Shown here: one piece after another, positions 2,876 to 19,367 of the stretch | Numbering within the stretch: position 1 is the first letter of the stretch | Layout: each line of letters starts with the position of its first letter | Assembly (NCBI RefSeq): GCF_900156535.1 | Contig: NZ_FTNV01000004.1 | Span: 1 to 64,000, forward strand | Length of the DNA stretch: 64,000 nt | Reading direction: 5' to 3' | Source: Roseovarius nanhaiticus | GTDB lineage: Bacteria; Pseudomonadota; Alphaproteobacteria; Rhodobacterales; Rhodobacteraceae | Notes under the pieces: generated by a model | Seen by the model: only the letters and a program-made list of their open reading frames with translations | What the model was told of the DNA's origin: nothing | The model's database searches: none | Made by a program: the position numbers and the translations under genes

Positions 2876-3294
2876 GCGATCAAATCTTTCGCCAGCACCA
2901 GCGCGTCAACGGGTGTGCCACCCGGCCGCGCGTAATAGCCCGCCCGTCGTCCGGTCTCGGCGTAGCCTGCCCGCGCATAAAGCGCGCGCGCCGCCGGGTT
3001 ATCCTGGGCCACCTCCAGGAATTGCCGATTGGCGCCAGCCTCCGCGACACGGCGCTCGACTTGGGTCAAAAGGCGCGTGGCAATTCCCTCCCGGCGATGC
3101 TCGGGGTCAGTTGCCAGCGTCAAGAGCTCGGCCTCGCCCGCAATCACGCGCGCCAAGGCAAAGCCATGCGTCTCATGGGCGAGATGGCAATGCGGCGCGT
3201 CGATCAGGTAGGAAAACTCAGCGATGCTCCAGCCCCGCCCAGTCGGCGCGAACGCGCGGGCATGCAGACGCGCCAGCGCCTCGGCGACACTCAC
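2872..3294 (-). CDS. rimI: ribosomal protein S18-alanine N-acetyltransferase (GNAT)
   Basis: This 140-residue GNAT-fold acetyltransferase has the acetyl-CoA loop RREGIATRLL and a C-terminal NPAARALYARAGY segment typical of RimI. RimI acetylates the N-terminal alanine of ribosomal protein S18. Adjacency to tsaB is a common bacterial arrangement and supports the call. The start chosen is the GTG at 3294, which overlaps the tsaB stop (GTGA). The longer upstream frame lies inside tsaB and is an Arg/Ala-rich shadow. Confidence 0.85.
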   Translation of the reverse strand: MSVAEALARLHARAFAPTGRGWSIAEFSYLIDAPHCHLAHETHGFALARVIAGEAELLTLATDPEHRREGIATRLLTQVERRVAEAGANRQFLEVAQDNPAARALYARAGYAETGRRAGYYARPGGTPVDALVLAKDLIA

Positions 3295-3956
3295 AAGGGC
3301 GCCTCCGGCAGCATCACCGGCGGCACGTCGCGCGCCGGCGCCGCGTCCGCCTGCTTGAGGTAAAACGGCGCAGCGGGTGCGTCGCCTAATTGCCACCGCG
3401 TGGTGGCGATCCGCGCGATTGCGGCGCCGGGCGCATGAGCCGCCGGAATATGCGGCACGCCCAGATGCGCCGCTATCTCGGCGCCCGCCGTTCCGACCGA
3501 AATCAGCCCAGGTTCGACCAGCGTCAACGGCAGCGCGTCAATCGAGATCAACTGCGGCGGCAGCGCGCGCGCCATACCGTAACCGGCCACATACGCCTGC
3601 CCGCGCGGCGCCGCGATCGCCGCAATCACCGGCCCCGCCGCGTCATGCGCCAAGCCATCGAGCAGCGTTACCCCGACGGCCCGGATGCCCAGAGACAATG
3701 CCAGACCCCGCATCGCAGAAACGGAAATGCGGATACCCGTAAAATTACCCGGCCCCGTACCAACACCAATGGCCGAAAGATCACTCCAATCGGCCCCGCC
3801 TCGCGCCATCAGATCTTCAAGCAGCGGGAACAGCGTCTCGACCTGACCCTTCGTCATATCTTGGTACAGGTCACAAAGCACATCGCCGCCCTGCAAGAGG
3901 ACGGCGCTGCAATAGGAACCCGACGTATCTACGCCAAGGATCAAAGGTTCAGACAC
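3291..3956 (-). CDS. tsaB: tRNA threonylcarbamoyladenosine biosynthesis protein TsaB
   Basis: This 221-residue protein of the ASKHA fold begins ILGVDTSG and carries the GVGTGPGNFTGIRI motif characteristic of TsaB (formerly YeaZ). TsaB is the scaffold that pairs with TsaD to transfer the threonylcarbamoyl group made by TsaC onto A37 of ANN-decoding tRNAs. The GTG start at 3956 overlaps the nfuA stop by 8 bp. The pathway partner tsaC is also in this window (23851), on the other side of the sox island. Confidence 0.92.
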   Translation of the reverse strand: MSEPLILGVDTSGSYCSAVLLQGGDVLCDLYQDMTKGQVETLFPLLEDLMARGGADWSDLSAIGVGTGPGNFTGIRISVSAMRGLALSLGIRAVGVTLLDGLAHDAAGPVIAAIAAPRGQAYVAGYGMARALPPQLISIDALPLTLVEPGLISVGTAGAEIAAHLGVPHIPAAHAPGAAIARIATTRWQLGDAPAAPFYLKQADAAPARDVPPVMLPEAPL

Positions 3957-4512
3957 CGACAGGGCGCACCTCGGTCACTTCGGGAATGTAGTGCCTCAGC
4001 AGATTCTCGATGCCCATCTTGAGCGTGATGGTCGAGGACGGGCAGCCGGCGCAGGCGCCTTGCATGTGCAGGTAGACGACACCGCGATCAAATCCGTGAA
4101 ACGTGATATCGCCGCCATCCTGCGCCACGGCAGGACGTACCCGCGTATCCAGCAATTCCTTGATCTGGCCGACGATTTCGCCATCCTCGCCCGTATGCTC
4201 GGAGTGGCCCGAGGCGGCGGTGCCGCCATCTTTCATGACAGGCAGACCTGACTGGAAATGCTCCATGATCGCGCCCAGAATACCGGGCTTGATGTGATCC
4301 CACTCGGTCATATCTGTCTTGGTCACCGTGATGAAATCATTGCCAAAGAAGACTGCCGTCACGCCATCCACAGCAAAGATGCGCCCAGCGAGCGGGGATG
4401 CATCCGCATTCTCGGCCGACGGAAAGTCCGCCGTGCCCGCGGGCAGGACGGTCTGCCCCGGCAGAAATTTCAGCGTCGCCGGATTGGGTGTGGATTCGGT
4501 CTGGATGAACAT
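3949..4512 (-). CDS. NifU/Nfu-type Fe-S cluster scaffold protein
   Basis: This 187-residue protein has two parts. The N-terminal Nfu_N domain begins MFIQTESTPNPATLKF. The C-terminal NifU domain carries the cluster-binding CAGCPSS motif (CxxC) in the last 30 residues. Such proteins deliver 4Fe-4S clusters to client enzymes. The ATG at 4512 is chosen because it matches the family N-terminus; the upstream extension to 4692 runs through an intergenic repeat. It is the first gene of the nfu-tsaB-rimI-lysE run. Confidence 0.92.
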   Translation of the reverse strand: MFIQTESTPNPATLKFLPGQTVLPAGTADFPSAENADASPLAGRIFAVDGVTAVFFGNDFITVTKTDMTEWDHIKPGILGAIMEHFQSGLPVMKDGGTAASGHSEHTGEDGEIVGQIKELLDTRVRPAVAQDGGDITFHGFDRGVVYLHMQGACAGCPSSTITLKMGIENLLRHYIPEVTEVRPVGV

Positions 4513-4600
4513 GGGAAGCCCCCTGAATTGTCTGACTTTGCATATGCGCCCCCGCGCGGCCCGAGTCAAGGTTTGGAACGATTCTAAACTGCTCGCCACA

Positions 4601-4633
4601 CTTTCATTGTTCGGAAAATACTCCTGCCGGAGG
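4601..4633 (-). repeat. recurrent 3' element, copy 1 (GAACAATGAAAG subtype)
   Basis: Read on the minus strand, a short GC stem (CCTCCGGCAGGAG) leads into GAGTATTTTCCGAACAAT and GAAAG. It lies about 30 nt after the soxT stop and before nfuA. Six other copies of this layout occur in the window (26698, 30376, 33981, 38951, 39125, 56905), always just 3' of a gene and in its sense orientation. Confidence 0.7.
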
Positions 4634-4663
4634 CTGCAACCCGCGCGAATGCCGGGCGCCCGC

Positions 4664-5722
4664 TCAATGCTCCGGCGCTGTAAACCCTTCAATCAATTGG
4701 CGCAGGCCCAGCGCGGCGCCTGCGAAGATACCCGCGAATACGATGGGCGCGTTGAACGTCAGCAACGAAAAGGCTGAAATGCCCTGACCGATGGTGCATC
4801 CCATGGCCAGCGCCGCCCCGAATCCCATTAGGACAGCGCCCAACACCTGGCGGCGCAGCTCACGCGGATCTTCGCAGGCCTCCCAACGGAAATGGCCCTT
4901 GATCAAGCTCCCGGCGAAGGCGCCGGCCAGAACCCCGGCGACCGAACCGACGCCAAAGGTGAGGCCGCCGCCGCTTGACGTCATGAGAAAGAGCAACGTT
5001 TCGCCCAGCGGCGAGGTGAATGTGTGACTGTTCACCGGCGCGGCGGCAAAGCCGGTGCGCGCGACCCATTGCGTGCCCGCCCAGCCGCTGACGATGGCCA
5101 GCCCCGCAAGCGTACCCCAGATCACCGCACCACGCGCCTGCCGGAAGGGGTGCGACCACAGCATCCAGCCCGTGATCGCGGCGCTGATCGCCAGCCCCCA
5201 AACCACCGACGGCATACCGAAGACCGCGCTCAGCGCGTCGGGATAACTGCGCGCGCCCGTCTCAACCGACGAAAGGCCGAGGCCGATAAGACGCAGCTGC
5301 GCAAGCGGCCCGGACAGGGCGACATATGTCGCAATCCCCATGACCAGAACAATCACGAAGGATCGCAGGTCGCCGCCCCCGAACCGGGCCAGCGCGCCAA
5401 AGCCGCAATTTCCGGCCAGCGCCATCCCGTAACCGAACAGCAGCCCGCCCATCACGCCGTACAGCGGCGACCACGGCGCGATATGGTAGATCGTCTGCGC
5501 CGGATCGAGCGCGCCAAGACCGATAAGCGCGAACGCACCCAGCCCCGCCACACCGATGGCGAGGCCCCACATGCGAAGCCGCACACTATTGCCCGAATAG
5601 AGAAAATCCTCGATCCCGCCCAAAGTGCAGAACCGTCCCAACCGCGCAGCAAGGCCCAGGATCACGCCACCACCAAACCCGATCAGGGCCAGCAGCACAG
5701 TCTCGGAGAGCGCGGATATCAT
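4664..5722 (-). CDS. soxT: YeeE/YedE family sulfur-compound permease (SoxT-like)
   Basis: This 352-residue polytopic inner-membrane protein has about nine or ten helices. It has the YeeE/YedE (DUF395) hallmarks: a Cys after the first helix (about C32), GNCGFGALARF with C106, and a second MGCTIGQG motif near residue 310. In the structurally known relative TsuA, conserved cysteines pass thiosulfate through the membrane. The gene lies directly downstream of soxS and soxR on the same strand, matching the soxSRT arrangement described in Pseudaminobacter. Thiosulfate import or regulatory sensing is the likely role. It is one of three such permeases in this locus. Confidence 0.85.
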   Translation of the reverse strand: MISALSETVLLALIGFGGGVILGLAARLGRFCTLGGIEDFLYSGNSVRLRMWGLAIGVAGLGAFALIGLGALDPAQTIYHIAPWSPLYGVMGGLLFGYGMALAGNCGFGALARFGGGDLRSFVIVLVMGIATYVALSGPLAQLRLIGLGLSSVETGARSYPDALSAVFGMPSVVWGLAISAAITGWMLWSHPFRQARGAVIWGTLAGLAIVSGWAGTQWVARTGFAAAPVNSHTFTSPLGETLLFLMTSSGGGLTFGVGSVAGVLAGAFAGSLIKGHFRWEACEDPRELRRQVLGAVLMGFGAALAMGCTIGQGISAFSLLTFNAPIVFAGIFAGAALGLRQLIEGFTAPEH

Positions 5723-5749
5723 GGTCCGCCCCTTGCCGCGCGTATGGCG

Positions 5750-6085
5750 CTAATTGTTCTTGCAGAAAAGATCATAGACGAGGTCCAGGATCTGAATCGC
5801 GCGCGGGTCAGTCAGGCTGTAATAGATGGCCTTGCCCTCGCGGCGCGGCGATACCAGCCCTTCGGCTCTCAGCCGCGACAGCTGTTGCGACACCGCTGCC
5901 TGCCGCGACGACAGTAGCTGTTCCAACTCGGTCACGGATTTCTCGCCATTGGCCAGATGACACAGGATCATCAGCCGCCCTTCGTGACAGATCGCCTTGA
6001 GAAACTGCGCCGCATTCTGCGCGTTTTGCATCATCCGATCCAAATCGGCTTCGGACATATCCTTGGTGATGACGGGCAAAGACAT
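5750..6085 (-). CDS. soxR: ArsR-family sulfur-responsive repressor SoxR
   Basis: This 111-residue winged-helix protein carries the recognition helix SRQAAVSQQLSRLRAEG at about residues 60-76. Cysteines fall at residues 33, 42 and 108. C42 and C108 match the spacing of the pair that forms a polysulfide bridge in SqrR/BigR (C41/C107 in R. capsulatus SqrR), so de-repression by reactive sulfur is expected. It lies between soxS and soxT. A GTTC-N8-GAAT site at 6102-6117, 16 bp upstream of its start, could mediate autoregulation. Confidence 0.92.
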   Translation of the reverse strand: MSLPVITKDMSEADLDRMMQNAQNAAQFLKAICHEGRLMILCHLANGEKSVTELEQLLSSRQAAVSQQLSRLRAEGLVSPRREGKAIYYSLTDPRAIQILDLVYDLFCKNN

Positions 6086-6101
6086 AAGCTAATGTATCCC
6101 A

Positions 6102-6117
6102 GTTCGCAGCTTGGAAT
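6102..6117. promoter_or_regulatory. candidate SoxR operator upstream of soxR
   Basis: The sequence GTTC-N8-GAAT differs by one base from the ATTC-N8-GAAT dyad reported for the related repressor SqrR. It sits just 5' of soxR. The match is by eye only, and a 7-of-8 match to a short motif is weak alone. It gains weight from the perfect 8-of-8 match upstream of the soxG-like gene at 21283. Confidence 0.4.
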
Positions 6118-6207
6118 AACCGCTGGAGCGCGTTCTGGCAAATTGCAACTGCGCAATGCCACCGAAAGGCGTGTCGCTAAAAGACCGCGTTACGGCGCCA
6201 CCCCTGC

Positions 6208-6567
6208 TCATTCGGCGCCCGGCGCGGTTACATCGTGCGTGTCCAGAAGATTTCCCAGAACGAACCAGAAGAATTCGTCCCCCGCATAGCCCTCGATCCG
6301 GCCCAGCTCCTGTCCGTCCTCGACCAGCACAAAAGTCGGCGTAAAGACCGGGGGCGAGGTGAAGGCGATGTCATCCGGCAGATCACGCAGATCGACGCGG
6401 CGCAGGGGCGCGCGCGCGGCCTCTTCTGTCTTGGGGTAGATCGGGCCGATCTCCGCGTTCCATTGGGCGCACCAATGGCATCCGGCCTGTTCGACCATGA
6501 CCAGATCCGCCGCTGCCCCGGGCAGCGCCATCCATATCGCTCCAAGAGTAAGGGCCGCGCGCCGCAT
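6208..6567 (-). CDS. soxS: periplasmic thioredoxin-like protein SoxS
   Basis: This 119-residue protein has a signal peptide (residues 1-20, ending GAAA) and a thioredoxin-like domain with the redox pair C30-H-W-C33 (AGCHWC). In Paracoccus, SoxS is a periplasmic thiol reductant needed to keep the Sox system, notably SoxYZ, active. The ATG at 6567 has a preceding GGGAAG and gives a good signal sequence. The ATG at 6591 lacks a ribosome binding site. The gene is divergent from soxV and is followed by soxR after 122 bp. Confidence 0.9.
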   Translation of the reverse strand: MRRAALTLGAIWMALPGAAADLVMVEQAGCHWCAQWNAEIGPIYPKTEEAARAPLRRVDLRDLPDDIAFTSPPVFTPTFVLVEDGQELGRIEGYAGDEFFWFVLGNLLDTHDVTAPGAE

Positions 6568-6646
6568 CAGGCTTCCCGATTGACTGATCATCCAAATATA
6601 AAATAGTTTGAATATGTAATCGGCACAAGTGGCAGGGAGGCGCCCC
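6568..6646. promoter_or_regulatory. divergent soxS-soxV promoter region
   Basis: This 79-bp gap between divergent soxS and soxV is much more AT-rich than its surroundings. It contains an imperfect dyad, CAAA-N10-TTTG (6593-6610), and GAAT at 6610-6613. In Paracoccus SoxR binds the equivalent soxS-soxV gap, so this is the expected operator region. The ATTC-N8-GAAT consensus itself is only partly matched here (ATAA-N8-GAAT). Confidence 0.5.
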
Positions 6647-7384
6647 ATGTTCGATGTATCGTTTTTGGGCGCCTTCGTTGGCGGGCTGATCGTTTTCTTT
6701 TCGCCCTGCATCCTGCCCATCGTGCCCTTCTATCTCAGCTACATGGCCGGCGCATCCATGTCCGAGATCAGCGCAGAGGGCCGCCTTGCGCCCGGCGTGC
6801 GGCAACGTGCATTCTTTGCATCCATCATGTTCTCGCTCGGGATCATCACCGTCTTTGTTCTGCTGGGCGCGGCGGCCTACGGCCTCAGCCAGACATTCCG
6901 CAGCATGCAGACGGAGTTCCGTCTCTTCGCCGCGCTCGTCGTGCTGGTCATGGCCCTGCATTTCCTTGGTGTCTTTCGCATCGGCTTTCTCAACCGCGCG
7001 TTTCAGATGGATGCGGGCGATACGCAGAACATGTCGGTGCTGGGCGCCTATGTGGTCGGCTTTGCCTTTGCCGCCGGGTGGACGCCCTGCGTCGGCGGCG
7101 TTCTGACCGCTGTCGTCTTTACCGCCAGCACCGAGGCGACGGCGGCGCGCGGCCTTGTTCTGCTGCTGGTCTTCGGTGTGGCGATGACGGCACCCTTCGT
7201 GGTTGCGTCGCTCTTTATCGGGCCGTTCCTGAAATTCGCCTCGAAATTCCGCCGCCACCTGCCCAAGGTCGAAAAGGCGATGGGTCTTCTGCTTCTGCTC
7301 TTTGCAGGTCTCATCGCCACCGACAGCGTCAATTACATTGCGCAGTGGATGCTGCAAACGTTCCCCGTCTTTCAGAACATATAG
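6647..7384 (+). CDS. soxV: CcdA/DsbD-like membrane thiol-disulfide transporter SoxV
   Basis: This 245-residue six-helix protein of the DsbD transmembrane/CcdA family has the two conserved redox cysteines, C21 in FFSPCILP and C148 in GWTPCVGG. It carries electrons from cytoplasmic thioredoxin to periplasmic SoxW and SoxS, keeping the SoxY cysteine reduced. The ATG at 6647 is preceded by GGGAGG at a good distance and is preferred over the GTG at 6629. It is followed by soxW after 12 bp. Confidence 0.93.
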   Translation: MFDVSFLGAFVGGLIVFFSPCILPIVPFYLSYMAGASMSEISAEGRLAPGVRQRAFFASIMFSLGIITVFVLLGAAAYGLSQTFRSMQTEFRLFAALVVLVMALHFLGVFRIGFLNRAFQMDAGDTQNMSVLGAYVVGFAFAAGWTPCVGGVLTAVVFTASTEATAARGLVLLLVFGVAMTAPFVVASLFIGPFLKFASKFRRHLPKVEKAMGLLLLLFAGLIATDSVNYIAQWMLQTFPVFQNI

Positions 7385-7396
7385 GGAGATCACCCC

Positions 7397-7969
7397 ATGA
7401 AACGCCTCATTGCCCTACTGCTTCTCGTTGCCTTCCCTGCGTTTTCAGCCACCCTGGGGGACGACGGCCTGCACAAGCAGGACTGGATGCGCGACACTTT
7501 CAAGGATCTTTCCGAGGATCTGGCCGAGGCGAATGCCGAAGGCAAGCGCCTCGTGGTCATGGTCGAGCAGCGCGGCTGCATCTATTGCGACAAGATGCAC
7601 AAGGAGGTCTTCTCGCGCGAGGATGTCTCCAGCTATATCCGCGACAACTTCTTCGTGGTGCAAATCAATCTGCATGGCGACACCGAGATCACGGATTTCG
7701 ATGGCGAGGTGCTCAGCGAAAAGGATGCCGCGCGCAAATGGGGCCTGCTTTTCACACCATCGATTCTCTTCCTCCCCGAAGACGTTGAGAGCGACGAAAC
7801 CGCCCAATCGGCTGCGGTCGCGTTGATGCCCGGCGCCTTCGGGGCCGGAACGACGCTGGATATGTTCACCTGGGTCAACGAAAAGCGCTACGAGCTTGAT
7901 TCCGGTGAGGATTTCCAACGCTATCACGCCCGCCGCATCCAAGAACGCGCCAATGGATCGACAGATTGA
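7397..7969 (+). CDS. soxW: periplasmic thioredoxin SoxW
   Basis: This 190-residue protein has an N-terminal signal (about residues 1-18) and a thioredoxin-like fold with the redox motif C61-I-Y-C64 (QRGCIYCDKM). SoxW accepts electrons from SoxV and reduces periplasmic Sox partners. It lies immediately downstream of soxV, and a 95-bp promoter-containing gap separates it from soxX. This matches the soxVW/soxXYZ layout of Paracoccus and Rhodovulum. Confidence 0.92.
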   Translation: MKRLIALLLLVAFPAFSATLGDDGLHKQDWMRDTFKDLSEDLAEANAEGKRLVVMVEQRGCIYCDKMHKEVFSREDVSSYIRDNFFVVQINLHGDTEITDFDGEVLSEKDAARKWGLLFTPSILFLPEDVESDETAQSAAVALMPGAFGAGTTLDMFTWVNEKRYELDSGEDFQRYHARRIQERANGSTD

Positions 7970-8032
7970 GCTATTTCCATTCCTGTCAAGCGCAACTTAC
8001 ACTTGCTACATCGTGTCGCGGTGCTCTAGAGT

Positions 8033-8048
8033 ATGCCAAAGATTGAAT
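8033..8048. promoter_or_regulatory. candidate SoxR site upstream of soxX
   Basis: The sequence ATGC-N8-GAAT is a 7-of-8 match to the ATTC-N8-GAAT dyad reported for SqrR. It lies 17 bp upstream of the soxX start and overlaps the expected promoter/leader. In Paracoccus the soxW-soxX gap is a second SoxR target, so the position fits. The match is partial and by eye. Confidence 0.35.
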
Positions 8049-8064
8049 GTGTTTGGGAGGACGC

Positions 8065-8538
8065 ATGGAACGCAAATTCCTCATACTATTGGCATTCGCC
8101 GCATCGACAGGTGCCGCTGCCGCTGAGATCGCTCCGTCCGACGTGTCCTACGTCGACGGCAGCATCGAAACGTCACTGACCGGCACGCCCGGCAATGCCG
8201 AGAATGGCCGCCAGATCGTCGGCAACAAAAGCCTTGGCAACTGTGTGGCCTGCCATCAGATCAGCGATCTGTCGGACGTGCCCTTCCAGGGCGAAATCGG
8301 CCCGGCGCTGGACGGCACCGGCGCACGCTGGAGCGAGGCAGAGCTGCGCGGCATCGTCGCCAACGCCAAGATCATGTTCCCCGAGAGCATGATGCCGTCC
8401 TTCTACAAGACGACCGGCTACATTCGGCCCGGTGACGCTTATACGGGCAAGGCGGCGGGCGAAGATCTGCCCCCCCTGCTGGCCGCACAACAGATCGAAG
8501 ACGTGGTCGCCTATCTGACCACGCTCACTGAATACTAA
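8065..8538 (+). CDS. soxX: sulfur oxidation c-type cytochrome SoxX
   Basis: This 157-residue periplasmic monoheme cytochrome has a signal peptide of about 20 residues and a heme site C60-V-A-C63-H64. A Met-rich segment (PESMMPS, about 107-113) likely provides the axial Met. SoxX forms the SoxXA complex, which oxidatively couples thiosulfate to the SoxY cysteine and accepts the electrons. The ATG at 8065 follows GGGAGG and excludes the upstream in-frame start at 8047. It is the first gene of the main structural operon. Confidence 0.95.
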   Translation: MERKFLILLAFAASTGAAAAEIAPSDVSYVDGSIETSLTGTPGNAENGRQIVGNKSLGNCVACHQISDLSDVPFQGEIGPALDGTGARWSEAELRGIVANAKIMFPESMMPSFYKTTGYIRPGDAYTGKAAGEDLPPLLAAQQIEDVVAYLTTLTEY

Positions 8539-8634
8539 ACTGGATCGAGACGCCTCCCGCAACGTCGCAGGGGGCACTCCGCCCGCAAGGGCAGGCTTGA
8601 CGGCCCCAGATATGGGCCAAACGGAGGTTATGAC

Positions 8635-9054
8635 ATGCAACTGACACGACGCGATGCAATTGTGATCGGGGCCGGCGCGATGCTGGTGGCCGGTCTGCCC
8701 CTGCGCGCTTCGGCGGCCACCGGGGACGAGGCAATCGCCGCCTTCACCGGCGGCGCCGAAGTGGGCGAGGGCGACATCACGCTGACCGCCCCCGAAATCG
8801 CTGAGAACGGCAACACCGTCCCGATCGAAGTGTCTTCGGAAAGCGCCTCGGAAATCATGGTGCTGGCGCTTGGCAACCCGACGCCCGCAGTGGCGACATT
8901 CAAATTCGGACCGCTGGCCGCCTCGCGCGCCGCATCGACGCGCATTCGCCTTGCAGGCACGCAGGATGTGGTCGCCATCGCGAAGCTGCAGGACGGCTCG
9001 TTCGTCAAGGCGTCTTCGACGGTCAAGGTAACAATCGGCGGCTGCGGCGGCTAA
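8635..9054 (+). CDS. soxY: thiosulfate-carrier protein SoxY
   Basis: This 139-residue protein has a twin-arginine signal (LTRRDAIVIGA) for Tat export. It ends in GGCGG, the flexible C-terminal arm whose cysteine (C137) covalently carries sulfur intermediates through the Sox cycle. It is exported as a complex with the signal-less SoxZ. A 96-bp gap after soxX holds a ribosome binding site (GGAGG) but no clear terminator. Confidence 0.96.
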   Translation: MQLTRRDAIVIGAGAMLVAGLPLRASAATGDEAIAAFTGGAEVGEGDITLTAPEIAENGNTVPIEVSSESASEIMVLALGNPTPAVATFKFGPLAASRAASTRIRLAGTQDVVAIAKLQDGSFVKASSTVKVTIGGCGG

Positions 9055-9070
9055 ATCAGGAGATCATGAC

Positions 9071-9400
9071 ATGGCAGAAGGTGTAAAACCCCGCGTCAAA
9101 GTGCCGAGCAAAGCTTCGGCCGGCGAAGAGATCGTCATCAAGACACTCATCAGCCACAAGATGGAGTCCGGTCAGCGCAAGGATGGTGACGGCAACGTCA
9201 TTCCGCGCTCGATCATCAACCGCTTCACCTGCGATTTCAACGGCGAGAACGTCATCGACGTTAAGATGGAGCCCGCGATTTCCACGAATCCCTACATGGA
9301 ATTCGAAGCGATCGTGCCCGAGTCCGGTGAATTTACCTTCACCTGGTACGATGATGACGGCTCGGTCTACACGGAAAGCAAAGAGATCACCGTCGGGTGA
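9071..9400 (+). CDS. soxZ: sulfur oxidation protein SoxZ
   Basis: This 109-residue protein has an immunoglobulin-like fold, no signal peptide, and family-typical KVPSKASAGEEIVIKTLI and SHKMESGQR segments. SoxZ partners SoxY and is carried to the periplasm by its Tat signal. The gene starts 16 bp after soxY with GGAG upstream, consistent with strict co-translation of the pair. Confidence 0.96.
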   Translation: MAEGVKPRVKVPSKASAGEEIVIKTLISHKMESGQRKDGDGNVIPRSIINRFTCDFNGENVIDVKMEPAISTNPYMEFEAIVPESGEFTFTWYDDDGSVYTESKEITVG

Positions 9401-9425
9401 TCCACGCGTCTTGGGAGGGACAAGG

Positions 9426-10271
9426 ATGAAACGACTGACAGCCACCATCACTGCCGGCCTCATGGCCGGCACCATGGCCACGGCAGAACCGGTGGATGAC
9501 ACGCTTGTCCTGAACGGTGAGACCGAGATGGTCACGCGCACCGCCGCGCCCGCCGCCGTGGAAGGCGCGCTGGACGAGGTGATCTCGGGTTGGCACTACC
9601 GCGGTGATGAAACGCGCGTGATGCAGGCCGATGATTTCGACAATCCCGGCATGATCTTCGTCGAGCAGGCCGAGGATACCTGGAATATGGCCGAAGGATC
9701 AGCAGGCAAGTCCTGCGCCGATTGCCATGGCGCCTCCGAGGAGATGGCAGGCGTGCGTCCGGTCTATCCCAAGTGGAATGAAGAGGCTGGCGAGGTCCGC
9801 ACCCTGGAGATGCAGATCAACGACTGCCGCGAGAACCAGATGGGCGCGGAGCCGTGGAAATACACCGGAAACGAGATGGTCAACATGACCGCGCTCATCG
9901 CATCCGTATCGCGCGGCATGCCGGTGAACGTGGCCACCGATGGCCCCGTGCAGTCCACGTGGGAGCAGGGCAAGGAGCTGTATTACACGCGCTTCGGCCA
10001 GCTCGAGCTGGCTTGCTCGAACTGCCATGAGGACAACAACGGCATGATGATCCGCGCTGATCACCTCAGCCAGGGCCAGATCAACGGCTTTCCGGTCTAT
10101 CGCCTGAAAAACACCAAGCTGAACGCGGTGCATTCGCGCTTCAAGGGCTGTGTCCGCGACACCCGCGCCGAGACATTTGCACCGGGCAGCCCCGAATTCG
10201 TGGCGCTTGAGCTTTATGTCGCCTCGCGCGGCAATGGCCTCTCGGTCGAGGGTCCGTCCGTCCGCAACTAA
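9426..10271 (+). CDS. soxA: diheme cytochrome SoxA, L-cysteine S-thiosulfotransferase subunit
   Basis: This 281-residue periplasmic protein has a signal peptide of about 20 residues. Two heme sites are present: C97-A-D-C100-H101 and C197-S-N-C200-H201. The conserved active-site cysteine is C242 in RFKGCVRDTR, which becomes a persulfide ligand of the catalytic heme. Having both hemes places it with the Paracoccus/Rhodovulum diheme SoxA type. With SoxX it attaches thiosulfate to SoxY. The ATG at 9426 follows GGGAGGGACAAGG. A strong terminator-like hairpin follows the stop. Confidence 0.95.
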   Translation: MKRLTATITAGLMAGTMATAEPVDDTLVLNGETEMVTRTAAPAAVEGALDEVISGWHYRGDETRVMQADDFDNPGMIFVEQAEDTWNMAEGSAGKSCADCHGASEEMAGVRPVYPKWNEEAGEVRTLEMQINDCRENQMGAEPWKYTGNEMVNMTALIASVSRGMPVNVATDGPVQSTWEQGKELYYTRFGQLELACSNCHEDNNGMMIRADHLSQGQINGFPVYRLKNTKLNAVHSRFKGCVRDTRAETFAPGSPEFVALELYVASRGNGLSVEGPSVRN

Positions 10272-10281
10272 CTCCGAAATG

Positions 10282-10311
10282 CCCCGCACGGCATCCCGTG
10301 CGGGGTTTTTT
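10282..10311 (+). terminator. intrinsic terminator between soxA and soxB
   Basis: A perfect 10-bp stem, CCCCGCACGG (10282-10291) pairing with CCGTGCGGGG (10296-10305), closes a 4-nt loop and is followed at once by six T residues (10306-10311). It lies 10 bp after the soxA stop and 27 bp before the soxB start. It is the best-formed intrinsic terminator in the window, inside what is normally one transcription unit. Confidence 0.9.
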
Positions 10312-10338
10312 CGAGCCAATACATTCAGGAACACGCAT

Positions 10339-12036
10339 ATGATATCCCGTCGCGACTTTCTCCAGACCAGCATGGCGGCCAGTGCCCTTCTCGGCGCGTC
10401 GGGCTTTGGCAAATGGGGCCGCCTCGCCGCGCAGCAGGCGCTGACTCAGGACCAGCTGACCCAGTTCGACACGTTCGGAAACGTCTCACTGATCCACGTC
10501 ACGGATATCCATGCGCAGCTGAAACCGATCTATTTCCGCGAGCCTTCGGTCAATCTGGGCGTCGGCCCCAACAAGGGCGAGGTGCCGCATATCACTGGCG
10601 CCGATTTCCGCCGGATGTACGGCATCGACGATGGCTCCTACGCGCATTACGCGCTGTCATCGGGTGATTTCACCGCGCTGGCACGCGAATACGGCCGCGT
10701 TGGCGGCCTCGACCGGGTGGCGACGGTCATCAATCAGATCCGCGCCGACCGCCCCGACGCCCTGCTGCTGGATGGCGGCGATACATGGCATGGCAGCTAT
10801 ACCTGCCACCAGACCCAAGGCCAGGACATGGTCACCGTGATGAACGCGCTGAAGCCGGACGCGATGACCTTCCATTGGGAATTCACATTGGGGTCCGATC
10901 GCGTACGCGAAATCGTCGAAGGCCTGCCCTTCGCCGCGCTGGGGCAGAACATTTTCGACGCCGAATGGGATGAGCCTGCCGAGCTGTTCCCGCCCTACCA
11001 ATTTTTTGAGCGTGGCGGCGTCAAGATCGCCGTGATCGGCCAGGCGTTTCCCTACATGCCCATCGCCAATCCGGGCTGGATGTTCCCCGAATACTCCTTC
11101 GGCATCCGGGACGAGCATATGCAGCAGATGGTCGACGAGGTGCGCAGCCAGGGCGCCGAGCTGGTCGTCTGCCTCAGCCATAACGGCTTTGACGTGGACA
11201 AGAAGATGGCCAGCATCGTCACAGGCATCGACGTGATCCTGTCGGGCCACACCCATGACGCCCTCCCCGAGCCTGTGCTGGTCGGCGAGACAATCATCGT
11301 CGCCTCCGGGTCGAATGGGAAATTCGTCAGCCGCGTCGATCTGGACGTGCGCGATGGCCGCATGATGGGCTTTCGCCACAAGCTGATCCCGATCCTGTCG
11401 GACGTGATCGAACCGGACAAGGAGGTTGCCGCCGTCATCGACGAGGTCCGCGCACCTTACGCGGACGCGCTGGCCGAGGTGATCGGCAAGACCGACAGCC
11501 TTCTTTACCGTCGCGGCAATTTCAACGGCACCTGGGATGACGTGATCTGCGACGCGCTCCTGTCACAGCGGGACGCGGAAATCGCGCTCAGCCCCGGTGT
11601 GCGCTGGGGGCCGTCGCTTCTGCCCGGTCAGGACATCACCCGCGACGATCTGTGGGGCGTTACCTCGATGTCCTATGGCGAGGCCTACCGCACCGAAATG
11701 ACGGGCGAATACCTCAAGGTCGTGCTCGAGGATGTGGCCGACAACCTCTTCAACCCCGACCCCTACTACCAGCAGGGTGGCGACATGGTGCGCACCGGTG
11801 GCCTTGGCTACCGCATCGACATCACCAAGCCACAGGGTGAGCGCATCAGCAACCTGACGCTTCTGCCCAGCGGCGAGGCCATCGACCCCGCGCGCAGCTA
11901 TAGCGTCGCCGGCTGGGCCTCGGTCAACGAAGGCACGGAAGGCCCGCAGATCTGGGACGTGGTCGAGGCGCATATTCGCGACAAGGGCACAGTCAGCGCG
12001 CCCGGACATGACAGCGTCGAGGTCGTGGGCCTGTGA
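10339..12036 (+). CDS. soxB: thiosulfohydrolase SoxB
   Basis: This 565-residue Tat-exported protein (signal RRDFLQTS) is of the calcineurin-like metallophosphatase/5'-nucleotidase superfamily. It shows metal-site motifs DIH (56-58), GGDTWHGS (146-153), a HWEFT segment, LSHNG and GHTHD. SoxB uses a di-manganese centre to hydrolyse sulfate from SoxY-bound S-thiosulfate. The ATG at 10339 gives the Tat signal; the longer frame overlaps soxA and the terminator. The length matches the family. Confidence 0.96.
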   Translation: MISRRDFLQTSMAASALLGASGFGKWGRLAAQQALTQDQLTQFDTFGNVSLIHVTDIHAQLKPIYFREPSVNLGVGPNKGEVPHITGADFRRMYGIDDGSYAHYALSSGDFTALAREYGRVGGLDRVATVINQIRADRPDALLLDGGDTWHGSYTCHQTQGQDMVTVMNALKPDAMTFHWEFTLGSDRVREIVEGLPFAALGQNIFDAEWDEPAELFPPYQFFERGGVKIAVIGQAFPYMPIANPGWMFPEYSFGIRDEHMQQMVDEVRSQGAELVVCLSHNGFDVDKKMASIVTGIDVILSGHTHDALPEPVLVGETIIVASGSNGKFVSRVDLDVRDGRMMGFRHKLIPILSDVIEPDKEVAAVIDEVRAPYADALAEVIGKTDSLLYRRGNFNGTWDDVICDALLSQRDAEIALSPGVRWGPSLLPGQDITRDDLWGVTSMSYGEAYRTEMTGEYLKVVLEDVADNLFNPDPYYQQGGDMVRTGGLGYRIDITKPQGERISNLTLLPSGEAIDPARSYSVAGWASVNEGTEGPQIWDVVEAHIRDKGTVSAPGHDSVEVVGL

Positions 12037-12077
12037 CCGAGCATGTGACAGACAAGACACCAAAAACGGAGGACACC

Positions 12078-13346
12078 ATGTCAAAAGGACCTTCGCGCCG
12101 CAATTTTCTGCGCGGCGCCGCCGCCGGAACGGCGCTGATCGCCGGGGGCGCGGCGCGGGCCGCAAACACCCCCGATCCTCTCATCACCGAGGTTCAGCCC
12201 TGGGCCAGCGGCTTTGGTGATCCGGTCGATGCCCACCCCTACGGCCTGCCGATCCGCTTTGAGGATGACGTCATTCGCCGCAATGTCGAATGGCTGACCG
12301 CCGACACGATCAGCTCGATCAACTTCACGCCGATCCACGCACTCGACGGCACGATCACGCCGCAGGGCTGCGCGTTCGAGCGGCACCATTCGGGTGCGAT
12401 CGAGCTGGCGAAATCCGACTATCGTCTGATGATCAACGGCCTCGTCGATCGTCCGCTGGTCTTCACCTACGAGGATCTGGAGCGCTTCCCGCGCGAGAAC
12501 CACGTCTATTTCTGCGAATGCGCCGCGAATAGCGGCATGGAATGGGCCGGTGCTCAGCTGAACGGCGCGCAATTCACCCACGGCATGATCCACAACATGG
12601 AATATACCGGCGTGCCCCTGCGCACGATCCTTGAGGAAGCGGGCTTGGATGCTGCTGGCGATCCCAAGGACAAGTGGGTGTTCGTCGAGGGGGCCGATGC
12701 GTCGTCGAACGGCCGCTCGATCCCGATGGATAAGGCGCTGGACGACGTTCTCGTCGCCTTCAAGGCCAATGGCGAGGCTCTGCGCAAGGAGCATGGCTAT
12801 CCCGTGCGCCTCGTCGTTCCGGGCTGGGAAGGCAATATGTGGGTCAAGTGGATCCGCCGGATCGAGGTCATGGATGGCCCCGTGGAAAGCCGCGAGGAAA
12901 CCTCGAAATATACCGACACGATGGCCGACGGCACGTCGCGCAAATGGACCTGGGCGATGGACGCGAAATCCGTCATCACGTCGCCCAGCCCGCAATCGCC
13001 GATCCCCCATGGCAAGGGCCCGCTGGTCATCAGCGGCCTTGCCTGGTCCGGCAACGGCGCGATCGCCCGCGTCGATGTGTCGAAGGACGGCGGCAAGACA
13101 TGGGAGACCGCGCGCCTTGCCAAGCCTGGCGAGAAGATGGCCCTCACTCGCTTTTACCTGGATACGGACTGGGATGGCGAGGAGATGCTGCTGCAAAGCC
13201 GCGCCATGGACGACACGGGCTACATTCAGCCAACCAAGACCCAGCTGCGCGAAGTGCGCGGGCTGAACTCCATCTACCACAATAACGCGATCCAGACCTG
13301 GCTGGTCCGCGCAAGCGGGGAGGCAGAAAATGTCGAAGTTTCTTAA
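12078..13346 (+). CDS. soxC: sulfane dehydrogenase molybdopterin subunit SoxC
   Basis: This 422-residue protein of the sulfite oxidase family has a Tat signal (SRRNFLRGA). The molybdenum-ligand region FCECAANSG (C146/C148) and a C-terminal Mo-co dimerisation domain are visible. With SoxD it removes six electrons from SoxY-bound sulfane sulfur, allowing complete oxidation to sulfate without sulfur deposition. The ATG at 12078 follows GGAGG. The in-frame GTG at 12033 sits on the soxB stop and would precede the Tat motif. The 3' end overlaps soxD by 17 bp. Confidence 0.95.
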   Translation: MSKGPSRRNFLRGAAAGTALIAGGAARAANTPDPLITEVQPWASGFGDPVDAHPYGLPIRFEDDVIRRNVEWLTADTISSINFTPIHALDGTITPQGCAFERHHSGAIELAKSDYRLMINGLVDRPLVFTYEDLERFPRENHVYFCECAANSGMEWAGAQLNGAQFTHGMIHNMEYTGVPLRTILEEAGLDAAGDPKDKWVFVEGADASSNGRSIPMDKALDDVLVAFKANGEALRKEHGYPVRLVVPGWEGNMWVKWIRRIEVMDGPVESREETSKYTDTMADGTSRKWTWAMDAKSVITSPSPQSPIPHGKGPLVISGLAWSGNGAIARVDVSKDGGKTWETARLAKPGEKMALTRFYLDTDWDGEEMLLQSRAMDDTGYIQPTKTQLREVRGLNSIYHNNAIQTWLVRASGEAENVEVS

Positions 13347-14391
13347 ACTCGGGGTCGCTCTGACCCTCATGACCGGCGCGGCCCATGCCGAAGGCTTCGG
13401 CCTCGGCCGCGAAGCCCTGCCCGAAGAGATCGCGGCGTGGAATCTGGACATCCGCCCCGGCGGCATCGGCCTGCCCGAAGGCTCGGGCGATGTGTGGACC
13501 GGCGAAGAGGTTTTCGTGGAGAAATGCGCGGCCTGCCACGGTGACTTTGCCGAAGGTCTCGGCAATTGGCCCAAGCTGGCGGGCGGCGAAGGTACGCTCG
13601 ATCACGAAGATCCGGTCAAGACAGTGGGCAGCTATTGGCCCTACCTCTCGACCACCTGGGACTATGTGAACCGTTCAATGCCCTATGGCAACGCGCAGTC
13701 GCTGACCCCGGACGAGGTCTATGCCATCGTCGCCTATATTCTATATTCCAACTATTTGGTCGAAGATGACTTTGTTTTGTCGGATGAGACCTTCGCTGAT
13801 TTCGAAATGCCGAACGCGGACGGGTTTTTCGTAGATGACCGACCCGAGACGGAGTACGCCCAGTGGTCGTCGGGCGAGCCATGCATGGAGAATTGCAAGG
13901 AAAACGTCGAGATCACCATGCGGGCCACGATTCTGGACGTGACCCCGGATACCGGCAGTGACGAAGAAGCAAGCGCCGATGCGGTCGAGGCCGAAGGCAC
14001 GGACATGGCTGAGGCCGAGCCAGCGACAGAAGACGTGGCAGAGGCCGAGCAAAGTGCCGCCGCGCCCGACCCCGAGCTTGTCGCCGCCGGTGAAAAGGTG
14101 TTTCGCCAGTGCAAAGCCTGCCACCAGATCGGCGATGGTGCGAAAAACCGCGTCGGCCCGATCCTGACCGGCATCGTCGGACAGCCAGCAGGCGCTGTCG
14201 ATGGCTTTCGCTACTCCAAGGCGCTGCAGGCAATGGCCGATGACGGTCTGGTCTGGGATGAGGCCAGCCTTGCGGCGTTCCTCGCCGATCCGCGCGGTTT
14301 CATGAAGGGCACCAAGATGAGTTTTGCAGGCCTGCGCAAAGAGGACGAGCTCAAGGCCATCACTGCTTATCTGGCAAGCTTTCCGGGATGA
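13330..14391 (+). CDS. soxD: diheme cytochrome SoxD, sulfane dehydrogenase subunit
   Basis: This 353-residue protein has a 20-residue signal and heme domains at C66-A-A-C69-H70 and C261-K-A-C264-H265. The domains are joined by a strongly acidic Ala/Glu/Asp linker (about 205-250). SoxD accepts electrons from the SoxC molybdenum centre and passes them to small cytochromes. It overlaps soxC by 17 bp and soxE by 4 bp, implying coupled translation. Its C-terminal domain closely resembles the first domain of SoxE. Confidence 0.94.
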   Translation: MSKFLKLGVALTLMTGAAHAEGFGLGREALPEEIAAWNLDIRPGGIGLPEGSGDVWTGEEVFVEKCAACHGDFAEGLGNWPKLAGGEGTLDHEDPVKTVGSYWPYLSTTWDYVNRSMPYGNAQSLTPDEVYAIVAYILYSNYLVEDDFVLSDETFADFEMPNADGFFVDDRPETEYAQWSSGEPCMENCKENVEITMRATILDVTPDTGSDEEASADAVEAEGTDMAEAEPATEDVAEAEQSAAAPDPELVAAGEKVFRQCKACHQIGDGAKNRVGPILTGIVGQPAGAVDGFRYSKALQAMADDGLVWDEASLAAFLADPRGFMKGTKMSFAGLRKEDELKAITAYLASFPG

Positions 14392-15107
14392 CCCGGCGCG
14401 CGCTGGCCCTTGCCGCGGCACTAGTCGCGGCGCTGGCCAGCGCATCCGCGCGCGCCGATACCGGCGCCGCCCCTCTCGGCGATGCCAATGCAGGCGAGGC
14501 CGTGTTCGACCAATGCAAGGCGTGCCACCAGGTCGGACCGGGCGCTACGGATCGCGTCGGCCCACACCTCAATCGCATCTTCGGACGGCAAGCCGCGTCG
14601 CATGACGGCTACCGCTATTCCGACTCGATGGCGCGTGCCGGGGCCGATGGCCTGATCTGGACCGCCAAGACGCTGGACGCCTATATCGAGAATCCTCGCG
14701 CGTTGGTCTCGAAGACACGGATGAGTTTTCGCGGCCTCAAAGACCCCGAAGACCGGGCCAACCTTCTGGCTTATCTGCGTATCTTCTCGGACAATCCCTC
14801 GGACCTCCCCGAGGCCGCGCCGACTGCGCGCGGCACTGATCACGATCTGGACCCCGCCATTCTGGCGCTTGTCGGCGACGCGGAATACGGCGAATATCTC
14901 TCTAGCGAGTGTCTGACCTGCCATCAGGCCGACGGCAGCGCCCAGGGCATTCCGGGCATCACCGGCTGGCCGACCGAGGATTTCGTCGTCGCCATGCACG
15001 CCTACAAGTCCAGGCTGCGCCCGCATCCTGTGATGCAGATGATGGCCGGGCGTCTCAGCGACGAAGAGATCGCCGCGCTCGCCGCCTATTTCAAGGAGCT
15101 CGATTAA
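14388..15107 (+). CDS. soxE: diheme c-type cytochrome SoxE
   Basis: This 239-residue periplasmic protein has a signal of about 23 residues and two heme sites, C43-K-A-C46-H47 and C175-L-T-C178-H179. The first domain is class-I cytochrome c-like; the second resembles the cytochrome subunit of flavocytochrome c. In Paracoccus SoxE pairs with the flavoprotein SoxF as a sulfide dehydrogenase-like complex, and soxF follows here after 30 bp. The start overlaps the soxD stop (ATGA). Confidence 0.88.
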   Translation: MTRRALALAAALVAALASASARADTGAAPLGDANAGEAVFDQCKACHQVGPGATDRVGPHLNRIFGRQAASHDGYRYSDSMARAGADGLIWTAKTLDAYIENPRALVSKTRMSFRGLKDPEDRANLLAYLRIFSDNPSDLPEAAPTARGTDHDLDPAILALVGDAEYGEYLSSECLTCHQADGSAQGIPGITGWPTEDFVVAMHAYKSRLRPHPVMQMMAGRLSDEEIAALAAYFKELD

Positions 15108-15137
15108 CGCGCTCCGCACTCTGGGAGGAAAAGACCG

Positions 15138-16406
15138 ATGACACTGAACAGACGCCTCTTTTTGGGCACCGGCGCCGCCGCTGCCGCATCCCTCACCGCG
15201 CCCGCCGTTCTGGCCCAAGGCAGCGGCAAACCCCGCGTTCTTGTCATCGGTGGCGGCGCCGGTGGGGCCACCGCGGCGCGCTATATCGCCAAGGATTCGG
15301 ACGGGGCGATCGACGTCACCCTCGTCGAGCCGTCGCGCAGCTACTACACCTGCTTTTTCTCGAACCTCTATCTCGGCGGCTTCAAGGAGATGGACGATCT
15401 GGGCCATACCTACGGCACGCTCGCAGCCGCGCATGGCATCAACGTCGTCCATGACTGGGCCGTGGGTGTGGACCGCGACGCCAAGACCGTCGCCCTCGCC
15501 AGCGGCGCGTCCCTACCCTACGACAAGCTGATCCTCAGCCCCGGCATCGACTTTGTCGACGGCGCTGTCGAGGGTTGGTCGCTGGCCGCACAAAACGCCA
15601 TGCCCCACGCCTACAAGGGCGGCACGCAGACCGCATTGCTCAAAGCGCAGGTTCAGGCCATGCCACAGGGGGGCACCTTCGCGATGGTCGCGCCGCCCAA
15701 TCCCTACCGCTGCCCGCCCGGCCCTTACGAGCGGATCTCGATGGTTGCCCACCTGCTGAAGGAAGCCAATCCGTCGGCCAAGATCATCGTCGCGGATCCC
15801 AAGGCGCAATTCTCCAAGATGGCGCTCTTTCAGGAGGGTTGGCTCAAGCATTACCCCGGCATGATCGACTGGATCGGCGCCGATTTCGGCGGTGGCAACG
15901 TGTCGGTCGACCCCGATGCCATGACCGTCACCATCGACAGCGAGGTGGTGCAGGTGGATGCATGCAATGTCATTCCCGCGCAAAAGGCCGGCCATATCGC
16001 CGAACTGGCGGGTGTGACGGATGGCGATTGGGTGCCCGTCAACGCCGCCGATCTCAGCAGCAAGGCCGACGCGGACATACATGTTCTGGGCGACGCTGCC
16101 GATCAGGGCGATATGCCGAAGTCTGGCTTTGCCGCCAACAGCCAGGCCAAGGTCTGTGCCAATGCGGTCCGCGGCGCACTGACCGGCAGCCGCGTCTTTC
16201 CGGCCAAGTTCTCGAACACCTGCTGGTCGCTGATCGAGACCAATGACGGGGTCAAGGTGGGCGCCACCTACGAGGCAACCGACGAGAAGATCGCCAAGGT
16301 TGATGGCTTTATCTCGCAGCCGGGCGAACCTGCGGACCTGCGCAAGGCCACCTACGAGGAATCAGAGGGCTGGTATGCCGGCATCATCGCCGACATGTTC
16401 ACCTGA
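15138..16406 (+). CDS. soxF: flavocytochrome c sulfide dehydrogenase flavoprotein SoxF
   Basis: This 422-residue FAD protein has a Tat-like signal (NRRLFLGTGAA) and the dinucleotide motif GGGAGG at 38-43. It has the redox-active cysteines typical of FccB, one in YYTCFFSN and one in SNTCWSLI, and a C-terminal FCSD-flavin-binding domain. SoxF with SoxE oxidises sulfide and has been shown in Paracoccus to reactivate the Sox system. The start at 15138 follows GGGAGG. It is the last canonical sox gene of the plus-strand run. Confidence 0.92.
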   Translation: MTLNRRLFLGTGAAAAASLTAPAVLAQGSGKPRVLVIGGGAGGATAARYIAKDSDGAIDVTLVEPSRSYYTCFFSNLYLGGFKEMDDLGHTYGTLAAAHGINVVHDWAVGVDRDAKTVALASGASLPYDKLILSPGIDFVDGAVEGWSLAAQNAMPHAYKGGTQTALLKAQVQAMPQGGTFAMVAPPNPYRCPPGPYERISMVAHLLKEANPSAKIIVADPKAQFSKMALFQEGWLKHYPGMIDWIGADFGGGNVSVDPDAMTVTIDSEVVQVDACNVIPAQKAGHIAELAGVTDGDWVPVNAADLSSKADADIHVLGDAADQGDMPKSGFAANSQAKVCANAVRGALTGSRVFPAKFSNTCWSLIETNDGVKVGATYEATDEKIAKVDGFISQPGEPADLRKATYEESEGWYAGIIADMFT

Positions 16407-16446
16407 AACAGGCGCAGGACGGCGCTGAGTACGCGCCGTTCCCCAA

Positions 16447-16460
16447 ATGACACAGATCAA
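16447..16460. promoter_or_regulatory. possible FNR/CRP-type site
   Basis: The sequence ATGAC-N4-ATCAA resembles the alphaproteobacterial FnrL dyad TTGAY-N4-RTCAA with one mismatch. It lies 55 bp upstream of the DUF302 gene. If real, the gene is under oxygen or nitric-oxide control. It is a single site found by eye. Confidence 0.3.
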
Positions 16461-16514
16461 GGCGAGGCGTCGCCGCTCGTGCTGTGATGCCTCCCGACAA
16501 CCAAAGGAGTTCAC

Positions 16515-16946
16515 ATGCGACACATTTTAACAGCGGGTCTGCTCGCCCTAACTGCCATTCCCGCAAGCGCGGCGGATGAGGCCGTCACATATCCGTTCAA
16601 TGGCAGTTTCGACGATGCCGCCTTCGCGGTCGAGAACGCGATCATCGGACGCGGCCTTGTCATCGACTACGTCAGCCACACGGGCGAGATGCTGGCCCGC
16701 ACCGCCGAAGATGTCGGCAGCGACACCGAACTCTTTACCGAGGCCGATATCTTTCTCTTCTGCTCGGCGCAGCTGTCGCGCAAGGTGATGGAAGCGGATC
16801 TCATGAACATCGCCCACTGTCCCTATGGCATCTTCGTGGCCGACCAGGGCGGCGAGGTGATGATCGGCTACCGCACCTATCCCGACGGGCCAATGCAGGA
16901 AGTGCAGGCCATGTTGGACGAGATCGTCAAGGACGCGATGAAGTAG
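16515..16946 (+). CDS. DUF302 domain-containing periplasmic protein
   Basis: This 143-residue protein has a signal peptide (about 1-19, ending ASAADE) and a DUF302 fold (FDDAAFAVENAIIGRGL and the NIAHCPYGIFV segment). DUF302 proteins are small domains frequently found with sulfur-oxidation genes; their biochemistry is unknown. It begins 108 bp after soxF, behind a small hairpin at 16419-16439 (7-bp stem, 7-nt loop), and may have its own promoter. GGAG precedes the start. Confidence 0.85.
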   Translation: MRHILTAGLLALTAIPASAADEAVTYPFNGSFDDAAFAVENAIIGRGLVIDYVSHTGEMLARTAEDVGSDTELFTEADIFLFCSAQLSRKVMEADLMNIAHCPYGIFVADQGGEVMIGYRTYPDGPMQEVQAMLDEIVKDAMK

Positions 16947-17075
16947 CCGCAGGGCGACGCAAAAGCGCGCGTCTTTGCGCCAGAACAATAAACTGTCCCC
17001 CGCCAGATGCGATGCTTGGCGCTGCGGGCGGATTGTGCCCGCGTACAGCGCTAAGTACCGAAAGGGGGCCACCCG

Positions 17076-19336: not shown

Positions 19337-19367
19337 CGTTCCGCCTGGCCGAAAATCGACCCTGATT

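Follow-up and report, generated by a model that had tools for sequence, protein, structure and literature searches.

The analysis of the sox cluster of Roseovarius nanhaiticus revealed that soxA and soxB are separated by a GC-rich hairpin, a T-tract directly behind it and a motif of the SoxR/SqrR operator type that also occurs in the control regions of soxV and soxX, and that the distance from the T-tract to this motif is near-fixed among the relatives. These observations suggest that a leaky intrinsic terminator and a SoxR operator might be coupled and together make up a control point at which soxXYZA is split from soxBCDEF, a reading that we place just short of an even chance. The sox genes are commonly regarded as a single unit. 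The window, meaning the whole stretch of 64,000 nucleotides that was analysed, contains the genes in the order soxR(-), soxS(-), soxV, soxW, soxX, soxY, soxZ, soxA, soxB, soxC, soxD, soxE and soxF, and the coordinates of the main features are given in Table 1.

Table 1. Features of the sox region in the window, with strand and basis of assignment.
Feature	Position	Strand	Details and basis
soxR, ArsR-family repressor, Cys42 and Cys108	5750..6085	-	phmmer against PDB 6o8k-6o8o; ArsR HTH
Operator-like site, soxS-soxV	6598..6613	+	11.9 bits, matrix from soxA-soxB sites only
Putative soxX promoter, TTGCTA-18-TAGAGT	8003..8032	+	Promoter scan; conserved promoter in the same gap of relatives
Operator-like site, soxW-soxX	8033..8048	-	12.3 bits; reads ATGC-N8-GAAT on the + strand
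soxA, last gene of the upstream segment	9426..10271	+	TIGR04484, 250 bits, above cut-off; ATG 9426 from the sequence
Hairpin	10282-10305	+	Stem 10282-10291 = CCCCGCACGG / 10296-10305 = CCGTGCGGGG; loop CATC 10292-10295
T-tract T6 (TTTTTT)	10306-10311	+	Sequence reading; TTT kept in operator-bearing relatives
Candidate SoxR/SqrR-type operator	10323-10338	+	ATTC-AGGAACAC-GCAT, one mismatch to ATTC-N8-GAAT; last base abuts the soxB ATG
Likely soxB Shine-Dalgarno AGGAA, within the operator, 7 nt 5' of the ATG	10327..10331	+	Sequence reading, probable assignment
soxB, first gene of the downstream segment	10339..12036	+	TIGR04486, 834 bits, above cut-off

The genes soxX, soxA, soxB and soxC were named by curated models scoring above cut-off and soxR by its ArsR domain together with a SqrR-type match, while the remaining sox names were presumed from gene order. 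SoxR of the window matched PDB 6o8k-6o8o, which we take to be R. capsulatus SqrR, with an E value of 6e-37 and both cysteines (42 and 108) aligned, and it scored 97 bits on the BigR equivalog model, under the cut-off of 155 bits. The cysteines Cys50 and Cys116 of Hyphomicrobium SoxR, as excerpted from PMC10451225, have a spacing of 66 residues, equal to that of Cys42 and Cys108 here. Transporters of the Sulf_transp family (PF04143, SoxT/YeeE-type) were also observed on both sides of the sox cluster, at 4664-5722 and 17076-18152; SoxT proteins of such type have been discussed for sulfur import and signalling (PMC11582611, partial text).

The stem begins 10 nt after the end of the soxA stop codon, and 27 nt lie between the T-run and the soxB ATG. 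Both spacings, the 4-nt loop and the six Ts had been placed exactly by the first-pass annotation, which slightly overstated the stem as a perfect 10-bp GC stem, since its 10 pairs consist of nine G-C and one A-T, with a possible extra G-T at the base. The region 10262-10345 folds at -28.7 kcal/mol; 200 dinucleotide shuffles gave -18.0 +/- 2.9 (z -3.7), and all of them were less stable. A pattern scan of 2000-20000 found 18 terminator-like sites where 13.3 +/- 3.4 were expected, so a bare pattern match carries little weight; among these 18 the soxA-soxB hairpin ranks second by stem and is the sole one with at least five Ts immediately 3', and the first-ranked site (19337, minus strand) has a longer stem and the tail TTTGGTTTGG. 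The element thus combines what is expected of an intrinsic terminator, a stem of at least five pairs with a short loop and a T-tract right behind it. An Rfam search over 7800-16500 for known RNA families gave two matches, RF00627 and RF01395, both far below the gathering scores.

A covariance model of the terminator and operator module (R2), to which some species contributed that may also be in the family sample described below, matched this genome once with E<0.01, at 64.8 bits; the runner-up of full length scored 15.6. A repeated palindrome was considered as an explanation and rejected, the core pattern occurring at two places in this genome and the R2 model giving its single match at E<0.01.

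Two sets of relatives were compared. In the same-genus set of 60 genomes, 42 carry a true SoxB (at least 68-70% identity), of which 41 were read and one, at a contig end (G018), was left out. The species-genome set comprised the best 80 of 589 relatives, of which 72 gave an unseen gap sequence and a readable soxA, mostly from Rhodobacterales (Roseovarius, Salipiger, Sulfitobacter, Phaeobacter and Loktanella) with Roseibium and Labrenzia in addition. The 113 soxA-soxB gaps obtained (41 + 72) all differ in sequence but do not represent independent lineages. A hairpin of -15.8 kcal/mol or lower was found in the first 75 nt of all 113, and folds of that stability also occur after the stops of soxX (26/83), soxY (45/107), soxZ (83/110) and soxB (65/99); as raw fold energy is weak proof in GC-rich DNA, a shuffle control was run at the sox stops. 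The 75 nt from the soxA stop reached z <= -2 in 99 of the 113 (median z -3.8), with 82 below all 50 shuffles, against 3/83 at soxX, 1/107 at soxY, 24/110 at soxZ and 14/99 at soxB for the same fold length.

Strict terminators, with an uninterrupted stem and a T-run, were detected in 67 of the 113 soxA-soxB gaps. The upstream gaps contributed 1/74 (S-V), 2/71 (V-W), 5/81 (W-X), 0/83 (X-Y), 1/106 (Y-Z) and 5/108 (Z-A), and the downstream gaps 4/96 (B-C), 1/93 (C-D), 5/53 (D-E) and 5/56 (E-F). When one stem interruption was allowed, 104 of the 113 reached -15 kcal/mol or lower, the weakest being L079 (-6.6), L016 (-6.8) and L019 (-7.1), and at least four Ts within 8 nt 3' of the stem were counted in 89; part of the 24 failures is a fault of this detector, which misjudges some twice-interrupted stems. 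The first-pass annotation had called the element a strong terminator and proposed comparing the soxA-soxB gaps of relatives for conservation; the hairpin was found in all 41 same-genus gaps, its absence not being encountered, and the T-tract in 29. Seven loci (L015, L036, L037, L039, L042, L112 and L114) have very stable GC hairpins right after soxA with hardly any T; these are unlike classical terminators and are perhaps mRNA 3'-end barriers.

When 71 operator-bearing gaps were aligned, the helix proved to be paired in 84.6% of cells, and its covariation is 0.312 against 0.139 in shuffled alignments (0/500 as high) and 0.06-0.13 in slid pairings, whose highest value is 0.129. Pairs changed on both sides number 8 of 10, not above the slid controls (7-9). 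The helix was set by hand from the pair table, RNAalifold having found no pairs on the MAFFT alignment (model R1 is pairless), and the pair counts therefore depend on a choice made from the very alignment in which they were counted. A chance inverted repeat is ruled out by the fold z relative to the other sox junctions together with this covariation. In line with what the first reading had held, the soxA-soxB hairpin is, judged by its sequence, an intrinsic terminator-like element, and it is conserved.

Behind the T-tract, the 27 bp before soxB had been described as having no obvious second promoter. None is recognisable there, within the limited sensitivity of the scans, and the interval is not empty, for the candidate operator at 10323-10338 had been overlooked. 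It scores 27.0 bits and is the top site of the window with a matrix made from soxA-soxB sites. The motif ATTC-N8-GAAT is the deduced recognition site of R. capsulatus SqrR (PMC9774250, as far as excerpted), and 83 of the 113 soxA-soxB gaps contain it with no more than a single mismatch, 22 of them exactly and 61, the window included, with one mismatch. T-tract and operator occur together in 75 gaps, the T-tract only in 14, the operator only in eight and neither in 16.

The operator matrix was derived from soxA-soxB sites only (28 non-redundant of the 83), and with a threshold of at least 8 bits it was applied to the S-V, V-W, W-X, X-Y, Y-Z, Z-A, B-C and E-F gaps, C-D and D-E being left out. 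Sites were obtained in 81/81 soxW-soxX gaps (6.9 expected from shuffles), 54/74 soxS-soxV gaps (5.5 expected) and 13/97 soxB-soxC gaps (1.7 expected), and none at this threshold in V-W (71), X-Y (82), Y-Z (105), Z-A (110) or E-F (55). With the ATTC-N8-GAAT core, the recurrence of the motif in control regions of the same regulon and a two-cysteine regulator nearby, the site at soxB looks like a SoxR landing site.

Some further sites of this type were observed in the window. At soxX, the operator lies downstream of the putative -10 box, and in the aligned relatives it lies mostly upstream of the -35 box, so that the SoxR site seems to have swapped promoter side; the soxX start with the best Shine-Dalgarno sequence is 8065, not 8047. 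Outside the sox operon, an extra SoxR-type site at 21279-21300 (15.3 bits, with an exact ATTC-N8-GAAT at 21283) overlaps the beginning of a gene for a protein of metallo-beta-lactamase fold (20324-21289, minus), and a second such gene lies at 19368-20327. We presume that these genes are possibly SoxH-like members of the regulon.

The spacing of the module was measured from both ends. The first T of the TTT stands 17-18 nt from the operator in 64 of the 83 operator-bearing gaps, with 15 at other distances and four without a TTT there, and the stem end stands 16-19 nt from it in 68, while the distance from the operator to the soxB ATG ranges from 0 to 69 nt (sd 11). The spacing to the T-tract being near-fixed and that to the ATG variable, it is the terminator, and not soxB, to which the operator is tied. 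An ungapped, operator-centred alignment of 69 sequences less than 75% alike revealed GGGG at -22 to -19 (66-97%), TTT at -17 to -15 (84-97%) and a further T at -13 (81%), then an A-rich flank over -5 to -2, rTGT after the operator core and a weaker C-run of the 5' arm at -43 to -38. Over -48 to +65 of these 69 sequences, only terminator and operator columns are conserved; the sites had been chosen by their core (positions 0-3 and 12-15), so the core columns are conserved by selection and the T-tract, GGGG and flanks are not. The T-tracts are often interrupted, with C in 50% at the fourth position.

Such interruptions might suit the leakiness of an unconditional partial terminator, which would hold soxBCDEF at a fixed ratio and leave the SoxR-like site as a relic or as an additional binding site that does not influence termination. 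We regard this as very improbable, given that the operator flanks, unlike the remainder of the gap, are conserved and that the spacing is kept. The first-pass annotation had left the role of the hairpin between setting a ratio and acting as a conditional attenuator; because a SoxR/SqrR-type operator stands at a near-fixed distance from the T-tract, the attenuator half is now the better guess, and SoxR can be named as the candidate trans-acting factor. The near-fixed spacing could instead reflect a promoter of an unfamiliar type.

A promoter is the subject of the main rival, in which the operator serves an internal, SoxR-repressed promoter of soxBCDEF and the terminator insulates it from soxXYZA read-through. 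It is nothing unusual for a terminator to precede a new promoter, and the same motif stands in the soxV and soxX control regions. When 76 soxW-soxX sequences were aligned on their operator, a clear promoter appeared (TTG at +22 to +24, TA at +46/+47 and T at +51), and between -48 and +65 the 69 soxA-soxB sequences showed no -35 or -10 element at a constant position, which argues against this rival. In a consensus promoter scan, 6 of the 113 soxA-soxB gaps exceeded the shuffled 95th percentile where 5.7 were expected, and the model trained at soxW-soxX gave 3/113 against the same expectation, so neither scan shows an excess of high scores. The median of the consensus scan is slightly higher than in shuffles (7.3 vs 7.0, p 1e-3), a shift outside the tail that leans the other way. 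The scans are insensitive, since the consensus scan was positive in 37/73 soxS-soxV gaps and in only 10/79 soxW-soxX gaps, and the trained model misses soxS-soxV (5/73); the positional test is less so. Within this sensitivity, there appears to be no recognisable promoter behind the soxA-soxB terminator. In the window, the likely Shine-Dalgarno sequence lies within the operator and only 15 nt (10312-10326) are left between it and the T-tract, too short to fit a promoter unless it makes use of the terminator stem.

The placement of the operator among relatives bears on the same rival. In 97 loci with both the soxA-soxB and the soxB-soxC gap readable, the matrix score placed the operator in soxA-soxB only in 80, in soxB-soxC only in nine, in both in three and in neither in five. 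A soxB-soxC operator is thus present in 9 of the 14 loci without a soxA-soxB operator (<8 bits) and in 3 of the 83 others (Fisher p 3e-7, not corrected for relatedness). The nine loci are L015, L031, L054, L068, L084, L108, L110, L112 and L114, and two of the three loci with both operators, L063 and L073, fail the T-tract count at soxA-soxB. A TTGAC box stands ahead of the soxB-soxC operator in L015, L031 and L070, and in at least two of the nine loci this box looks like a real promoter. It seems that an internal SoxR site is kept at one place or the other and that it has moved in the soxB-soxC loci. This mutual avoidance speaks for internal SoxR control as such, and the internal promoter gains from it by analogy; weighed against the results at soxA-soxB itself, we consider such a promoter there unlikely, if the most serious alternative.

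The spread of the module was assessed in a family sample of 198 genomes, one per genus, of which 129 have SoxB. The R2 model gave 98 rows in 91 genomes, and 81 of these, in 81 genomes, lie on the same strand and at most 120 nt before soxB, so that the module precedes soxB in 81 of the 129 SoxB-bearing genera. Three of the 17 other rows are strong, namely those of G222, G196 and G249, the last at a contig end just after soxA. In G222 (L214) and G196 (L216), the module stands at a soxA-soxC junction and the detected soxB is on another contig; on that contig of G222, an operator-like TTGAATATG was noticed by eye upstream of soxB. The 14 weaker rows score 25.5-34.7, one of them (G112) lying just behind soxB by coordinates. 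In a class-wide sample of 289 genomes, the module was matched only in the own genome, and at least three other family members in it were without a match.

In the family sample, 48 SoxB genomes have no R2 match before soxB, and 46 of them were fetched (G128 and G196 left out). soxA adjoins soxB in 36 of the 46, and these 36 module-free gaps contain a hairpin of -10 kcal/mol or lower in 35 (a count made with no shuffle control), a T-tract in nine and the operator in two, so that a hairpin is near-general at this junction and the T-tract with the operator is its common variant.

Since hairpins without a T-run exist, hairpin and termination are separable and a terminator is not the only possible role of the hairpin. 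It might mainly shape mRNA decay by guarding the 3' end of a processed soxXYZA mRNA that outlives the soxBCDEF mRNA, as would fit the hairpin in 35 and the T-tract in just nine of the 36 module-free gaps. Precedents are the segmental decay of puf, with RNase E sites at pufA-pufL (PMC6238624, excerpted text), and protective 3' structures in E. coli operons (PMC5927463, likewise in excerpt). A decay barrier has no need for the TTT, which is kept at 84-97% in the operator-bearing gaps, and it leaves the near-fixed distance from T-tract to operator unexplained, so we hold this role to be improbable as the main one. The puf hairpin, from a related bacterium, resembles the present one in being a GC hairpin that separates two operon halves and is linked to their ratio, and differs from it in being a decay barrier with RNase E sites (PMC6238624, same excerpt), the soxA-soxB hairpin having a T-tract and an operator behind it.

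The coupling of terminator and operator remains our preferred reading. In it, the operon would be divided into soxXYZA, the carrier and cytochrome part, and soxBCDEF, the enzyme part, and polymerases from the upstream sox promoter would reach the hairpin after soxA. Without sulfur, SoxR would be on the operator, 17-18 bp past the start of the U-tract. The footprint of RNA polymerase extends about 15-18 bp ahead of its active site. A polymerase pushed against SoxR would then have its active site approximately over the U-tract, where the hairpin could release it, and leak transcription would stop at soxA. Once its cysteines are bridged by sulfane sulfur, SoxR would come off both the upstream promoters and the soxA-soxB site; polysulfide abolishes the DNA binding of Hyphomicrobium SoxR, according to the excerpted part of PMC10451225. 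We infer that the terminator alone is imperfect, a fraction of polymerases reading through into soxB-F. The off state would accordingly be a double lock, and in the on state SoxYZ and XA would be in excess over SoxB and CD, with read-through setting the ratio of soxBCDEF to soxXYZA. Published observations on mixed communities are compatible with a step after soxA, though they are no proof for this gap.

The more specific proposal is that SoxR, near-fixed behind the U-tract, stalls the polymerase for release by the hairpin, the same regulator acting at promoters and on elongation and the terminator and operator being a co-evolved module with locked spacing; this we put forward tentatively, as a possibility somewhat short of probable. 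The module found between soxA and soxC in the two genera with the detected soxB elsewhere speaks for the preferred reading. The T-tract absent by count in 24/113 gaps, including the group with a hairpin and no T-run, and in 27/36 module-free gaps speaks against it.

The terminator, the SoxR site and the roadblock are each known separately. In Paracoccus, the SoxR-bound regions are reportedly soxS-V and soxW-X, the original papers on Paracoccus and Pseudaminobacter being Rother 2005 and Mandal 2007. The present sites are like the SoxR operators of these bacteria in that the motif is common to the soxA-soxB, soxS-V and soxW-X sites and a SoxR gene is present, and unlike them in that an extra site stands inside the operon, behind a terminator and with no visible promoter. 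For P. denitrificans and P. salicylatoxidans, promoter-operator segments of the sox clusters have been described to contain SoxR-binding regions (PMC10451225, excerpt). The likeness to the SqrR/BigR/YgaV site lies in the exact or one-mismatch ATTC-N8-GAAT counted above, the window included; as far as the excerpt of PMC9774250 describes, the published ATTC-N8-GAAT-like site is on the ygaVP promoter, unlike here, where none is visible.

Besides LacI, CodY is another repressor that acts as a roadblock. The comparison with LacI is that a DNA-bound repressor would halt the elongating polymerase, and the stalling of polymerase at repressor roadblocks has been described to result in termination, in that case with Mfd (PMC10310618, in the part excerpted). 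Unlike these roadblock repressors, the soxA-soxB case would pair the repressor with an intrinsic terminator at near-fixed spacing. Among the literature titles searched, none was found on the soxA-soxB site or on a natural repressor-gated intrinsic terminator, which is no claim of absence.

The module is about 60 bp long and has natural variants, being T-less in some loci, with the operator at soxB-soxC in others or with soxB elsewhere, so that a repressor-gated terminator would be testable with few templates. If the control point after soxA is true, the sox cluster would set the levels of carrier (SoxYZ, XA) and enzyme (SoxB, CD) apart, and if the gate is true, one sulfur signal would be read twice within the sox operon.
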